Origin: Flavobacterium sp. 9R
GTDB lineage: Bacteria > Bacteroidota > Bacteroidia > Flavobacteriales > Flavobacteriaceae
Direction of reading: 5' to 3'
DNA: 64,000 bases
NCBI RefSeq assembly: GCF_902506345.1
Contig: NZ_LR733413.1
Location: forward strand, 190,530 to 254,529
The notes beneath the pieces are model-generated. The model was not told the origin of the DNA. It saw only the letters and a program-made list of their open reading frames with translations, and did no database searches. This document shows positions 54,278 to 59,682 of this stretch, in pieces (position 1 is the first letter of the stretch; each line of letters opens with the position of its first letter). The position numbers were made by a program, and so were the translations under genes.

Positions 54278-55522
54278 TTATTCGTATCGCAATGCTTCAA
54301 TTGGGTCGAGTTTCGAAGCTTTTATAGCTGGATACAATCCAGAAACAATGGCCACCATAAAACTAGTAGCAAAAGCAGCTAAGATGGCGCCCCACGGAAT
54401 AACGAAGGCAAAATCCATTGCGCTCGCGATACCAAAACCGATTAAGATTCCGAAAAAGATTCCGACCAGTCCGCCGATTTGACCAATGAGTAAGGTTTCG
54501 ATAAAAAACTGAATCGCCACGGTCGATTTCTTGGCGCCTAAGGCTTTTCGAACGCCAATTTCTCGGGTTCTTTCGGTTACCGAAACAATCATAATATTCA
54601 TCAAAGCGATGGAAGAACCAAAAATGGTAATCACCCCGATGAGCCAAGCAGCTAACCCTAAATATTGAGTGATACCTAAAATACGGTTGATTAAATCATC
54701 ACTGCGCACTACACCAAAGTTGTTGTCTTTTACGGGGCTTAATTTTCGCACGCGACGCATTACGCTAGTGGCGTTGTCTACGGCTTGGTCTAGTAATTCT
54801 TTTTTGCCCACCATTACGCTCAAACTGTAATTGATGTTGGGAGCACTAAAGAGCGAACGCGCTACTTGAATCGGAATCAACACGCGCAAATCCTGACTGT
54901 TGCCAAAAGTGGAACCCTTTTCTTTGAGTACGCCAATGACTCTGAATTTGGCTCCGCGAATCGAAATGACTTTGTCGATAGGATTGACGTCTTTCAAAAG
55001 TCCTTTCTCAAAATCCGAACCTACGATACACACAAAGGCATTGTTGGCAATGTCAAAACTCGTAAAATTTCGTCCCGCACTAAAATCCAATCCCGAATTC
55101 ACCGCATACATTTCGTCTACGCCTACAATTTTGTTTTCTGGGTCTGTTTTGGTGTTGAGGTATTTCACTTCGGCGGCCGAGCTTGCGGTAAACGAAATCG
55201 AAGTCTCGGTAAAAGGATATTTGTATTTGTTTCTAAACGCCACGGCATCTGGGTAAGAGATAATCGGGTTGATGATTTCTCGTTCGCCGCCGCCACGGTT
55301 TCGCGTCGTATTTTCGTATTGATTGATGTTGAAGGTATTGGCACCCATCGAGGCAAAATCCGACGAAATTTGATTTTCTAAGGCCGCCACCACGGTCAAA
55401 ATTCCCACCAAAGCCGTGATTCCAATAGCAATAATCAGTACCGTAAGAATGGTACGCAGCAATTGCGTTTTGATTGAACCCAACGCAATTTTAATATTTT
55501 CTTTGAATAATTTTAGCATCAT
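54278..55522 (-). CDS. ABC transporter permease, MacB/FtsX type
   Basis: A 414-residue permease with the MacB topology: TM1 near 22-44 (TILTVLIIAIGITALVGILT), a periplasmic domain of about 220 residues, then three TMs near 285-310, 340-365 and 375-400. VSVTERTREIGVRKALGAKK, just after TM2, is the coupling-helix signature of the family. Such proteins pair with a LolD/MacB-type ATPase for mechanotransmission or lipoprotein/peptide export; no ATPase gene is adjacent in the window. MMLK may start at either Met. It borders the repeat-rich pocket. Confidence 0.88.
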   Translation of the reverse strand: MMLKLFKENIKIALGSIKTQLLRTILTVLIIAIGITALVGILTVVAALENQISSDFASMGANTFNINQYENTTRNRGGGEREIINPIISYPDAVAFRNKYKYPFTETSISFTASSAAEVKYLNTKTDPENKIVGVDEMYAVNSGLDFSAGRNFTSFDIANNAFVCIVGSDFEKGLLKDVNPIDKVISIRGAKFRVIGVLKEKGSTFGNSQDLRVLIPIQVARSLFSAPNINYSLSVMVGKKELLDQAVDNATSVMRRVRKLSPVKDNNFGVVRSDDLINRILGITQYLGLAAWLIGVITIFGSSIALMNIMIVSVTERTREIGVRKALGAKKSTVAIQFFIETLLIGQIGGLVGIFFGILIGFGIASAMDFAFVIPWGAILAAFATSFMVAIVSGLYPAIKASKLDPIEALRYE

Positions 55523-55618
55523 ATAAGTTTGTCACGAAAATACAATTTTTGTTACAAGTTTGGTTTTCAAAAAACACTAAATTTCAAATCCACAAGCCTT
55601 CTATTTTTTTTAAAAACC

Positions 55619-56012
55619 ATATAAGGCATATAAGAGCATTTAAGTTTTTCTTTCCGAACTTGGCTGACATCTTTGTTTCTTTTCCAGTTAAATTTCACAG
55701 CTTCAATAAAAACTTCTACGATTATATGTTTGATAGCTTTGCGAACTTTGCGTAAAACTTTGCGAACCTTGCGGTTAAATTTTACAGCTTTTAAATAAAA
55801 CTTATATGCCTTTAAATGCCCTTATATGGTTCACAATAAAGTTTCAAAAAAACTCCAATGACTTATATGTTTTATGCTTTGCGAACCTTGCGTAAAACTT
55901 TGCGTTCCTTGCGGTTAAATTTCACAGTTTTAAAATAAAACTTATATGCCCTTAAATTCCTTATATGGTTCACAATAAAGCTTCAGAAAAAAATCCAATG
56001 ACTTATATGTTT
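55619..56012. repeat. Tandem ~140-bp repeats with an inverted flank
   Basis: Two direct units begin at 55736 and 55876 (GCTTTGCGAAC, then TTGCGTAAAACTTTGCG, CCTTGCGGTTAAATTT and CTTATATG ... TTATATGGTTCACAATAAAG). A degenerate inverted piece (AACCATATAAGGCATATAAG) lies at 55616-55648, and a fragment recurs at 59889-59935. No frame is convincing. With the element at 56020 it fills almost all of the 800 bp between the permease and the HNH gene. Confidence 0.65.
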
Positions 56013-56019
56013 ATTTTTA

Positions 56020-56177
56020 GGAGCTATTCCCGCTTTTCATTACAAGTCCTCGCACCATAAGCCATTTTTCTACGCCCCAAAAGGAGCTTCCGTTGGTCGC
56101 TCTTTTAGGTCAAGAAAAATTGGCTTTTGGCGCTCCGGGCTTTCCATTACAATCGGGGCTAGGGCAGTAGGAACACC
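56020..56177. repeat. Degenerate structured repeat element
   Basis: GAGCTATTCCCGCTTTTCAT at the left and CAATCGGGGCTAGGGCAG at the right match parts of the element at 50656-50815. The centre differs. It appears to be a decayed or divergent family member. Confidence 0.45.
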
Positions 56178-56245
56178 AAAACGTTTGGTTGGAATTATAT
56201 CCCTAAAAGGAATCATTTTTATCAATTTTTGTAAGGGATTAGTGT

Positions 56246-56253
56246 TATATTTG
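56246..56253 (+). promoter_or_regulatory. -7 promoter element of the HNH cassette
   Basis: TATATTTG matches TAnnTTTG. Transcription would start near 56260, before either candidate start of the HNH gene. The TTG at 56229-56231 is too close (14 nt) to be a standard -33. Confidence 0.4.
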
Positions 56254-56358
56254 GATTCTTACTACGAAACCAACTTTTGTTGATTGTGATGATTTGGGAG
56301 TGTTATAGGAAGATGGATTTTGTCTAAGAAAGAGTTGTATGAAAAAAAAATTAAAACT

Positions 56359-57051
56359 ATGTCGTGTAAAAGAGGAAAGGCATCTCCAAGTCCATATGTA
56401 AAACTTCAACTTTTTGCTGATTCTGGCGGATATTGCCAAAACCCAGAATGTAATCTTCCCTTGTTTCACAATTTAGGAGAAAGTAATTTTCATATTGCAG
56501 AAATGGCTCATATAATTGGTGCAAGTAATGATGGACCACGAAATTCAATAACTTTGACAAAATCTGAAAAAGGGAAATTTGAAAATTTAATTCTTCTATG
56601 TCCAAATTGTCACACTAAAATTGATAAAGTAGAAAGTGAATTTTCGGATAGCCTTTTAAAAAAATGGAAATCGAATCATTCAAGAAGAATAAAGGATCTT
56701 TTTGGAATTAAAAAGTTTGAAGAGAGAGAGTCAATAAGAAAAGTTTTAAGAAAAATTATGTTGGAGAATAAAGTTATATTTGATACAGTAGGTCCGTTAA
56801 CTGATGAAAGGTTTAATCCAGAAAGTGAGAATCCAAAAAAATGGAAAGAAGGAATACTTTCGACAATTCTTCCAAATAATAGAAAGATTTTGGGAATAGT
56901 TGAAGCTAATTATGATTTATTAAATCCAGATGAAGAAATTGTATTTGCAAACTTTAAACAACACGTTCGAGACTTTGAAGATAAGCATATAAACGATAAT
57001 GAATTGAGTGGTGCAACATTCCCATTAAAAATGAATAATATATTTGAATAA
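56359..57051 (+). CDS. HNH endonuclease family protein, first gene of a three-gene cassette
   Basis: A 230-residue protein from ATG 56359 (a TTG at 56320 would add 13 residues). A zinc-bound HNH/McrA-like module is visible: Cys26 and Cys31 (GGYCQNPEC), HIAEMAHIIGA with His51, Asn76 (KGKFENLILL) and CPNCHTKID with Cys81, Cys84 and His85. The remaining 140 residues have no motif I know and may recognise a target or partner. The next gene starts 1 bp after its stop. HNH proteins of this type are nucleases in restriction or defence systems, but also in other roles. AT-rich and unlike its neighbours in codon use (many ATA, AGA). Confidence 0.82.
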   Translation: MSCKRGKASPSPYVKLQLFADSGGYCQNPECNLPLFHNLGESNFHIAEMAHIIGASNDGPRNSITLTKSEKGKFENLILLCPNCHTKIDKVESEFSDSLLKKWKSNHSRRIKDLFGIKKFEERESIRKVLRKIMLENKVIFDTVGPLTDERFNPESENPKKWKEGILSTILPNNRKILGIVEANYDLLNPDEEIVFANFKQHVRDFEDKHINDNELSGATFPLKMNNIFE

Positions 57052-57052
57052 T

Positions 57053-57697
57053 ATGATTGAACCTAGCTTGTCAAAATGGGCATTAGAAAAAATTAAAATT
57101 CATGATGAAGTATCTTCAGTTGATATAAATGAAGACGAAGTAATAATTATAAAGAGGATAAATGGCAGTTTCATAAGGGTAGGTTCTTTTTCTTTTGCTG
57201 AATTGAATTTGGAAAATATAAATAAAATCGTTGAAAAATATAGATTGGATTTTATATTAAATATTAAATCGGGGGCTATCTATAAAGGAGAAATTTATAG
57301 CTTTCTAGATGATTGTAAAATAAGTTTTGGAAGCTTAAGTGACTTGTATAGAGTTATCTCTCAAAGTGAAAACTGGCCATATCTTCATAGGGATGTAAAA
57401 TTCATTCTTCGAGGTCTTGAACAGCACTCTAAAGTTGTAAAAGTTGTAAGACTAGATAACAAAAGACTGAAAATTTTTAAAAGAGATTTACAATTTATAG
57501 TTATTGTTGCGACAAACGATTATGAGGTTAATGCAGAATCGATTCGTAAATTACAAGACGATTTTAATAGTTTTGATGCAATCTTAGCTTCAAATCCAAG
57601 TGGTCGGATTACCTCTCAAGCATACACTGTAGCAAGTATGCTAAATGTTCCACTTTATAATTGGTCAGAATTATATGTTGAATTGAATAAATCATGA
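57053..57697 (+). CDS. Unknown protein with two similar halves, second gene of the cassette
   Basis: A 214-residue protein that I do not recognise. Residues 66-99 (DFILNIKSGAIYKGEIYSF ... SDLY) resemble residues 175-208 (DAILASNPSGRITSQAYTVA ... SELY): D-x-I-L, S-G, an I and Y four to six positions on, then S-[DE]-L-Y. Between them lies RGLEQHSKVVKVVRLDNKR. This suggests an internal duplication of an alpha/beta unit. No catalytic motif is evident. It begins 1 bp after the HNH stop and its TGA overlaps the ATG of the nucleotidyltransferase gene, so the three are made together. Start ATG 57053 chosen over TTG 57044. Confidence 0.75.
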   Translation: MIEPSLSKWALEKIKIHDEVSSVDINEDEVIIIKRINGSFIRVGSFSFAELNLENINKIVEKYRLDFILNIKSGAIYKGEIYSFLDDCKISFGSLSDLYRVISQSENWPYLHRDVKFILRGLEQHSKVVKVVRLDNKRLKIFKRDLQFIVIVATNDYEVNAESIRKLQDDFNSFDAILASNPSGRITSQAYTVASMLNVPLYNWSELYVELNKS

Positions 57698-57963
57698 AAA
57701 CATATGTAAATTCAGAGATAAGAAAAATTTCGAAACAATATTCTAATTATGATTTTTACCTTTTTGGTTCTTTCATTGAGAATGATATCCGATATAGCGA
57801 TATAGATGTTTTGATAATATACGATACTATGGAACAGATAAGTTCGGTACGATCTGATTTTAAAAAAATAGATACTTTTGAAATTTTTGATTTAATGTTT
57901 TTGAGTATTGACGAAGAGAAAGAAATTAAATTTGTCGAGAAAGTAAAAGCTGTTAGGATATAA
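57694..57963 (+). CDS. Minimal nucleotidyltransferase (MNT-like), third gene of the cassette
   Basis: An 89-residue nucleotidyltransferase-fold protein. The core is LFGSF (23-27) followed by YSDIDVLIIYD (34-44), giving the GSx10DxD signature with Asp36 and Asp38; FDLMFLS (about 65-71) provides the possible third acid. Such minimal enzymes transfer AMP or other nucleotides, for example as MntA antitoxins that AMPylate HEPN toxins. No HEPN partner is present here; the upstream genes are an HNH protein and an unknown protein. It overlaps the preceding gene by 4 bp (ATGA). Confidence 0.82.
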   Translation: MKTYVNSEIRKISKQYSNYDFYLFGSFIENDIRYSDIDVLIIYDTMEQISSVRSDFKKIDTFEIFDLMFLSIDEEKEIKFVEKVKAVRI

Positions 57964-58134
57964 TTAGTTAAATATTATTTTTCTTTAAAAAAAAACAAAG
58001 ACTAAAAAAAAATGTTTAGCGTTTTATTTTTTGATGTTATAGATTGACAAATGTCAACTAGATAAAAATCAAAATGTTTAATCAGCGACTTGTCCGATGA
58101 CTAAACGCTTTAAGCCCGATAGCCCTTTTTAAAA

Positions 58135-58626
58135 ATGACCTCAAAATTATCCCTTAGCGAGTTTCGTAACAGAATTAAAGAAAATTTGGATATCGGCTCT
58201 CTTAAACTAAAATTAAGTCCATTGTCTGTTTTTACAATGTTTGGGGAAACCTCCAAACCTTTTTATGGGAATTATGATGAGACTTCGTTTCGATTAACTG
58301 CGAACAGTACAATAACACCTACCTTTTATATCTTAAAAGGGAAGTATAAAAAAGTGAATGCTACCGTAACGGTAAACTATAACATCGTTTCGCCTTCTAA
58401 ATTTCATAAGATTTGGATAAAATTTTTTCCGATTTTGGCTTGTATTGCGGTAAATTCGGTGTTTTTTTTTGATTCAACTAAAGCTCCAATTGAAGTATAT
58501 GTGGTTTTTAATTCATTTTGGATTGTATCCTCGCTTTTTTCCGTATGGTACAATAAAAGAAAAAAGAGAAAGTTAGAAGAAAAGTTTTTAGAATTATTTG
58601 AAATAACTAAAGAGTATAGTGAATAG
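58135..58626 (+). CDS. Two-helix membrane protein, unknown
   Basis: A 163-residue protein. A soluble N-terminal part of about 100 residues (SKLSLSEFRNRIKENLDIGS at the start; FRLTANSTITPTFYILKGKY) is followed by two membrane helices (IWIKFFPILACIAVNSVFFF; YVVFNSFWIVSSLFSVWY) and a basic/acidic tail (NKRKKRKLEEKFLELFE). I recognise no family. It lies 171 bp after the nucleotidyltransferase gene on the same strand. It could be a fourth cassette member or independent. Coding is supported by the topology and frame. Confidence 0.6.
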   Translation: MTSKLSLSEFRNRIKENLDIGSLKLKLSPLSVFTMFGETSKPFYGNYDETSFRLTANSTITPTFYILKGKYKKVNATVTVNYNIVSPSKFHKIWIKFFPILACIAVNSVFFFDSTKAPIEVYVVFNSFWIVSSLFSVWYNKRKKRKLEEKFLELFEITKEYSE

Positions 58627-58794
58627 AATTAAAACCTAGATAGAATATGAAATGACGCTGACAATAATTCAAAATCGCGTTATAAAGTCCTCTAACTTTT
58701 TTCTATATTCGTCTCCCAATGAAAATTCGTGATGCTTCTCATATTTGGTTTCTTTAACTTTCGATGAGCGCATCAATTCACACCAAAAACTAAA

Positions 58795-59682
58795 ATGACA
58801 CCACCAACCCTCACAAAAATACAATTCGACAACTTTGTTTGGATAGACATTTGCCAACCCAACAAAGAAAATCTAGATAAAATCGCCCAAGAATACCAGT
58901 TGGATTATTTTCAAATTAAAGACAGTTTGGAGCGAGGCCACTTGCCCAAATTTGAAAAACAGCCCAATTATAATTTTTTAATTCTGAGGGCTTTTACGCC
59001 GAGAATGGCCAGTAAAGCGACAACCATCAATGAATTATCGCATAAAATTGCCTTTTTTTACAACGGACACAAAATCATCACGATTCATCGCAGTCCGTTT
59101 GCGTTTTTGGAAACGGTAAAAAAAGACCACAAAACACCCGAAGAGATTTTGATTTATCTCATCCACAAAATGGTAGAAACTTATCAAGTGCCTTTGAATG
59201 ACTTAGACGAAAAAATCATTCAAATCGAAAAGACGATTTTCCTGCAAGATTATTCTAAAATCTCCTTAGAAGAACTGTATTTTTTGAAAGCGCAAACCCG
59301 TATCACCAAAAAACTATTGCAGATTTTTCAAAATGTCATTCACCAACTCGAAGTGAGCGAGTCTTCAAAAACCGCTTTGCAAGACATCAAAGACAAGCTG
59401 CTGAGTTTGCTGCTCAATTATGACGAAGTGCTTGAAAATGCGAACAATTTACTGAATACCTATCTTTCGGTCAACGCACAAAAAAGCAATGATGTAATGA
59501 AGTTATTGACCATCTTTTCGGCTTTCTTTTTACCCTTAACATTTATTGCAGGTATCTACGGAATGAACTTTGAAAATATGCCCGAACTTCAATGGCCTTT
59601 GGGTTATTTTATGACCTTGGGCGTGATGGTCGTTATTGCTTTGGTTATCTATTTTTGGTTCAAAAGAAAACGCATTCTTTGA
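58795..59682 (+). CDS. corA: CorA family Mg2+/Co2+ transporter
   Basis: A 295-residue CorA. The C-terminal signature YGMNFENMP (the GMN selectivity loop) stands between the two membrane helices (LLTIFSAFFLPLTFIAGI and GYFMTLGVMVVIALVIYFWF), ending in a basic tail. The cytoplasmic N-terminal domain is mostly helical (LDEKIIQIEKTIFLQDYSKI). It assembles as a pentamer for Mg2+ influx. A preceding 168-bp gap has no promoter match I trust. A MITE-like element follows it. Confidence 0.94.
   Translation: MTPPTLTKIQFDNFVWIDICQPNKENLDKIAQEYQLDYFQIKDSLERGHLPKFEKQPNYNFLILRAFTPRMASKATTINELSHKIAFFYNGHKIITIHRSPFAFLETVKKDHKTPEEILIYLIHKMVETYQVPLNDLDEKIIQIEKTIFLQDYSKISLEELYFLKAQTRITKKLLQIFQNVIHQLEVSESSKTALQDIKDKLLSLLLNYDEVLENANNLLNTYLSVNAQKSNDVMKLLTIFSAFFLPLTFIAGIYGMNFENMPELQWPLGYFMTLGVMVVIALVIYFWFKRKRIL

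Follow-up and report, generated by a model that had tools for sequence, protein, structure and literature searches.

A conserved operon encoding an HNH nuclease, a tandem-repeat protein and a minimal nucleotidyltransferase in Flavobacterium sp. 9R is a candidate three-gene anti-phage cassette

Cyclic oligonucleotide-based anti-phage signalling systems (CBASS) combine a CD-NTase with effectors such as Cap5, in which an HNH nuclease domain is joined to a SAVED sensor domain. In the type VII HepT-MntA pairs, MntA, a minimal nucleotidyltransferase (MNT), keeps HepT off by nucleotide transfer. Here we describe a three-gene cassette that resembles each of these in part, found in a 64,000 nucleotide stretch of the Flavobacterium sp. 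9R genome (contig NZ_LR733413.1, positions 190,530 to 254,529; hereafter the window, to whose numbering all 9R coordinates refer). The genes lie on the plus strand and encode an HNH endonuclease (56359..57051, 230 amino acids), a middle protein of an unnamed family (57053..57697, 214 amino acids) built from a pair of homologous repeats (residues 1-110 and 111-214), and an MNT with a GS...DxD motif (57694..57963, 89 amino acids). They are as tightly packed as the preliminary description of the locus had reported, with a gap of 1 bp between the HNH and middle genes and an overlap of 4 bp (57694-57697) between the middle and MNT genes. By comparison of its sequences the trio is a conserved operon. 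A role in defence is probable, and we give slightly better than an even chance to the trio being an undescribed anti-phage cassette, abortive-infection or toxin-antitoxin-like in kind, that travels as mobile cargo.

The HNH protein has a Cap5-type HNH domain in which the HNH and zinc-ligand residues are kept, but in place of SAVED it carries a 113-residue predicted helical bundle; the cassette also differs from CBASS in having an extra middle protein and no CD-NTase, its sole nucleotidyltransferase being the 89-residue MNT. Since both SAVED and a CD-NTase are absent, identification of the trio as CBASS was dropped. With HepT-MntA the cassette shares a GS...DxD MNT encoded close beside a putative nuclease in one compact operon, but here the nuclease is of the HNH type, a third protein is present and the NCBIfam MntA model scores 16.8 bits on the window MNT, far below its cut-off of 60. 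The absence of a HEPN partner, remarked on earlier, held when the trio and the open reading frame (ORF) just downstream were compared with Pfam at E up to 1, a sequence comparison only; VIA comparison of the HNH model also listed no HEPN chain, which excludes nothing. The PADLOC candidate PDC-M68A matches the HNH region (E 2.3e-28), but only over profile positions 9-110 of 253, and differs further in that the window middle protein has no PADLOC match and the MNT is matched only weakly, by PDC-S09 models (best 1.7e-5). The PADLOC SduA model likewise matches the HNH region only, and the cassette differs from Shedu in lacking DUF4263 (Pfam, E up to 1).

Failure of the three genes to co-occur elsewhere had been named as a refuting test. 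Among the fetched loci, 17 distinct ones, the window included, encode an HNH protein with this C-terminal domain, and all 17 have the order HNH-middle-MNT. They are the window, L003, L005 and L008, the last from another family of the phylum, and loci from Vibrio (L009), Polymorphobacter (L010), Phaeobacter (L011), Ensifer (L012), Rhizobium (L013), Acinetobacter (L014), Klebsiella (L015), Novosphingobium (L016), IMG/VR (L024-L027; in L027 the contig ends within the HNH gene) and Escherichia coli (L035). Near-identical copies were counted once (L034 with L025, L021 with L015, L036 and L037 with L013). The trio ranges over Bacteroidota, alpha- and gammaproteobacteria and prophages. None of the six fetched loci whose HNH protein has another C-terminal region (L017-L020, L022 and L023) carries it; L017, a CBASS operon, and L020 were judged from annotation only. 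Two Shewanella plasmids in this group, typed IncC and conjugative, encode a Cap5-like HNH protein with a different C-terminal region in similar settings without the trio (L018:3998-4921 and L020:3998-4918), possibly another undescribed HNH module.

In a plasmid search, 80% or more of the HNH query was covered in seventeen records, and the trio is present in 13 of them and missing from H12 and H15; H5, H6 and H14 were judged from annotations, and H16 and H20 stand outside the tally. Separate searches with the HNH and middle proteins apparently had four contigs in common. The HNH profile was found in 2 of 299 genomes of the genus, 2 of 395 of the phylum and 1 of 395 of the order, own genome included, at strict limits (E 1e-30 or 1e-25) under which diverged copies may be missed.

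The proportion of nonsynonymous differences (pN) is well below that of synonymous differences (pS) in each gene in both pairs compared, window against genome G214 among them, with pS near or at saturation in both pairs; the only usable dN/dS value is 0.11, for the HNH gene of the window against G214, the middle and MNT genes being saturated. Protein distances across 15 loci, a set without L013 and L014 (shortened MNT) and L027 (truncated HNH), are correlated at 0.94 for HNH and middle, 0.75 for HNH and MNT and 0.81 for middle and MNT (Mantel 0/5000 for each). We conclude that the association is not due to chance, because the trio recurs in the same order in 17/17 loci and pN lies well below pS.

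DNA of the L025 trio was matched in 16 of 5,426 complete E. coli genomes: 14 matched along the full query at no less than 99% identity, three of these being records of ATCC 8739, a widely used laboratory strain that carries its copy in a P2-like prophage, and two matched over 37% of the query at 71% identity. One genome was opened for each variant, and in both the trio lies between replication endonuclease and portal genes, at the gpA-gpQ site of P2. The trios of L025 and L026 are similarly placed between proteins matching a phage replication nickase and a portal. Between the two E. coli variants residue identity is 70% for the HNH protein, 46% for the MNT and 47% for the middle protein. The extra genes beside the trio differ between the two, with a hypothetical protein at L034:7043-7720 and a DUF4145 protein at L035:3813-4553, and such different genes beside the same trio support a three-gene unit. 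PMC9122126 describes the gpA-gpQ site as a hotspot of anti-phage systems at which other functions are also present, and PMC9519451 places four of its own systems there. Elsewhere, the L024 trio adjoins a CI-like repressor with an integrase 2.7 kb away, and the Klebsiella trio, which has no DNA match in E. coli, lies inside a conjugation module. Plasmid trios adjoin Shedu (L011) and Drt3a/Drt3b (L016), a raw count with no matched control, and have ABC-3C genes (L010) or a DUF1837 gene (L013) within about 4 kb. Among phage records, neither the L025 middle protein nor the trio DNA had a match, and the window HNH protein matched one record over 44% of its length.

In lying between gpA and gpQ of P2-like prophages in E. 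coli, the trio is like the three-gene system 3HP. We take 3HP, a name from later papers, to be the three-gene P2-hotspot system of Rousset et al. 2022. PMC9122126 gives the three-gene system at the P2 site no clear predicted domain. A table of PMC10855318 lists 3HP, and as that paper names PADLOC often, PADLOC presumably has a 3HP model; PADLOC gave no hit named 3HP for the L025 trio or for the middle protein and MNT from either L024 or L026. Judged by PADLOC model names, the trio is unlikely to be 3HP. Prior cataloguing of the trio was the other outcome named in advance as counting against novelty, and no entry for it was found in PADLOC 2.0.0 (2023), NCBIfam 20, Pfam or PHROGs. Open-access literature searches, judged mostly from the papers listed, turned up no description of it, although newer system lists may hold the trio, and none is given in passages of PMC9519451, PMC3710099, PMC12839542, PMC13092281, PMC13101515, PMC11305592 and PMC10855318.

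The assignment of the first gene to the HNH nucleases was confirmed by strong PADLOC and PDB matches to Cap5-type HNH domains, with Pfam HNH and HNH_2 slightly below cut-off. Its start, given previously as 56246, is most likely the ATG at 56359, because it is here, at a shared MxC motif, that most relatives in the alignment have their start. The HNH domain covers approximately residues 9-117 (56383-56709). Within it, H51, N76, H85 and cysteines 26, 31 and 81 are invariant in 15/15 aligned loci and position 84 is C or H; the alignment shows that the protein has kept both the HNH residues and the zinc ligands expected of a Cap5-type domain. Residues 118-230 (56710-57048) are predicted from modelling to form the helical bundle. 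PADLOC HNH-SAVED and effector models stop by residue 129 of the 230-residue protein (142 of the 243-residue translation), and SAVED models in PADLOC cover at most the first few residues of this domain.

The middle protein had been described as a duplicated domain of no recognised type, and the duplication is clear: its N- and C-terminal halves align with an hhalign probability of 97.4 (E 1.2e-11), and the AlphaFold2 model contains two similar halves. Thirteen of the 17 trio loci encode the double form and four a single domain (L008, L014, L015 and L016). The protein is predicted to have a PD-(D/E)XK-like fold with the catalytic motif absent, a call made from predicted secondary structure and VIA-align, with an alpha-beta-beta-beta-alpha-beta core compared in the model; Foldseek alone was uninformative (best E 0.037), and PDB sequence searches with middle-protein profiles reached no better than E 0.29. 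The alignment shows that the PD-(D/E)XK catalytic motif is missing from relatives of this tandem-repeat protein: [EDQ]x[KR] within strand 3 or close to it occurs in only 1/47 rows for each half, and an acid at positions 41-46 and 149-154 (script column numbering) in 0/47. A polar set, Q124, Y157, R165 and D175, is invariant in the 47 rows. The protein collection contains 392 relatives with E values of 1e-3 or lower, and a profile search of viral_contigs found none; the protein is rare among close genomes, occurring in 1/60 relatives and 3/398 Flavobacterium genomes, own genome included in both. No significant match to the window protein was found in Pfam, NCBIfam, PHROG or PADLOC. Weak matches were set aside for the window protein (PF19923, E 0.17; NF041548, E 0.11), for that of L025 (phrog_36999, E 0.0063), for those of L015 and L012 (PF21735, E 0.02; PF07488, E 0.096) and for one of the 47 members (PF24281, E 0.0015). 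A Deltaproteobacteria metagenome-assembled genome locus (L002) was rejected as a chance match of about 30 aligned residues, with no HNH or MNT gene seen around it.

That the third gene encodes a minimal nucleotidyltransferase is upheld by Pfam, in which Polbeta and NTP_transf_2 both score above cut-off. FGS and DxD are invariant in 16/16 aligned rows, from which the MNT is judged to retain GS and DxD. Its PDB relatives are weak, the best being AF0614 (1ylq, E 8.7e-6).

An earlier proposal that the trio fits the logic of a defence or toxin-antitoxin system is supported by its recurrence, the gpA-gpQ hotspot and the Shedu and Drt3a/b neighbours. In the reading that we favour the HNH protein would cut DNA; its domain identity and residue conservation make it very probably the effector. 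The helical C-terminal domain, in SAVED's place in Cap5, may be a docking or gating part. Because of its predicted fold, the middle protein may sense or tether, as a nucleic-acid-binding or adaptor subunit that would recognise infection and hold the effector. The MNT would move a nucleotide onto the effector or adaptor, switching the effector off in uninfected cells, and infection would reverse this; by analogy with HepT-MntA, we rate a role as negative regulator at a little short of even. A bolder version, possible but doubtful, is that the trio represents a new class of nucleotide-gated DNA-cleaving immunity, in which a Cap5-type HNH protein has its sensor swapped for a docking domain, nucleotidylation by the MNT restrains it, and a fast-evolving tandem PD-(D/E)XK-like pseudonuclease sensing phage DNA releases it. 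If the trio is a defence system, it brings to light an uncatalogued module and a protein family for which Pfam has no entry, and it would put a Cap5 HNH effector under MNT control in place of a cyclic-nucleotide sensor.

Several observations weigh against the favoured reading. The window copy sits among housekeeping genes, outside any defence island. Hotspot clustering can come from shared mobility alone, the P2 site also has non-defence genes, and the background rate at which plasmid genes lie near defence genes is without a control. By rank, MNT distances follow those of the other two proteins weakly (Spearman 0.23 for HNH, 0.42 for the middle protein). The protein search returned 612 HNH relatives; genomic context was seen for a minority, and that of most lies outside the loci compared. 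The third nucleotidyltransferase carboxylate position in the MNT family is D or H, and MNT catalysis is therefore uncertain. The MNT is shortened in 2/17 trio loci, L013 (Rhizobium) and L014 (Acinetobacter), to only 70 amino acids in the latter, and in two of three R. leguminosarum records the HNH gene is full-length but the MNT gene is shortened (165 bp). The third shows the reverse, a shortened HNH gene with a full-length MNT, and these plasmids (L013, L036 and L037) may reflect cassette decay or sequencing errors. Unless the latter is the case, an intact HNH gene with a shortened MNT gene argues against an indispensable antitoxin.

For this reason we retain, as rather unlikely, a type IV-like restriction system in which the HNH and dead PD-(D/E)XK-like middle proteins recognise and cut modified or replicating phage DNA, with the MNT modifying DNA ends or tRNA or controlling the complex by some other route. 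Yet Pfam found no modified-base reader in the three genes, and an MNT gene, for which a restriction enzyme has no evident need, is present in 17/17 loci, shortened in the two. The kinship of the HNH domain with that of the CBASS effector Cap5, its replaced sensor domain, the nucleotidyltransferase within the operon and the conserved polar set of the middle protein would all suit CBASS-like signalling, with the MNT making a small nucleotide on infection that the middle protein or HNH C-terminal domain senses to turn the HNH protein on. This is nevertheless improbable, given that PADLOC CD-NTase models match none of the MNTs scanned (window, L012, L015 and L024-L026), SAVED models end at the first residues of the C-terminal domain, GS...DxD is found in MNTs generally and the third acid is not constant. 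Known CD-NTases are also far larger than 89 amino acids. We hold it just as improbable that the trio is a toxin-antitoxin module for plasmid or prophage maintenance (addiction), with the HNH protein as toxin and phage defence a side effect. That the genes are small, overlap and are found on plasmids, within a conjugation module and in prophages is consistent with addiction, as is the Mnt-family antidote 5yep (E 0.01) among the weak PDB relatives of the MNT, but copies also occur on chromosomes among housekeeping genes and repeatedly at a P2 site where anti-phage genes abound. We also know of no two-gene toxin-antitoxin pair with a third, fast-diverging subunit such as the middle protein.

In Flavobacterium sp. 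9R, housekeeping-like neighbours had been noted and were seen again by inspection, with an ABC-type permease gene upstream and a corA-like gene and hisS downstream. A corA-based look for an empty site gave a match in 3 of 40 genomes, own genome included. Between 58135 and 58626, downstream of the cassette, an ORF encodes a 163-residue protein with likely membrane spans (by inspection), for which Pfam and NCBIfam gave nothing above cut-off. The possible promoter proposed earlier holds in part: the plus-strand box TATATTTG at 56246..56253 fits TAnnTTTG, which we take to be the Bacteroidota -7 consensus, but a well-spaced -33 element was not seen. Scanning of 55,500-58,800 gave 14 sigma-70-like sites against 15.5 (sd 4.0) in shuffles, that is, no excess. 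Of the flanking repeats, previously called dense, the long ones lie only upstream (approximately 55,645-55,991) within the same stretch. They include a pair of 85-nucleotide direct repeats (55736..55960, plus strand; 91% alike, 140 nucleotides apart) that is probably not part of the cassette, and in the direct repeats of the region 55645-55991 as a whole, TTTGCGAACCTTGCG-like units occur along with TTATATG blocks, and there are weaker copies besides the 85-nucleotide pair.
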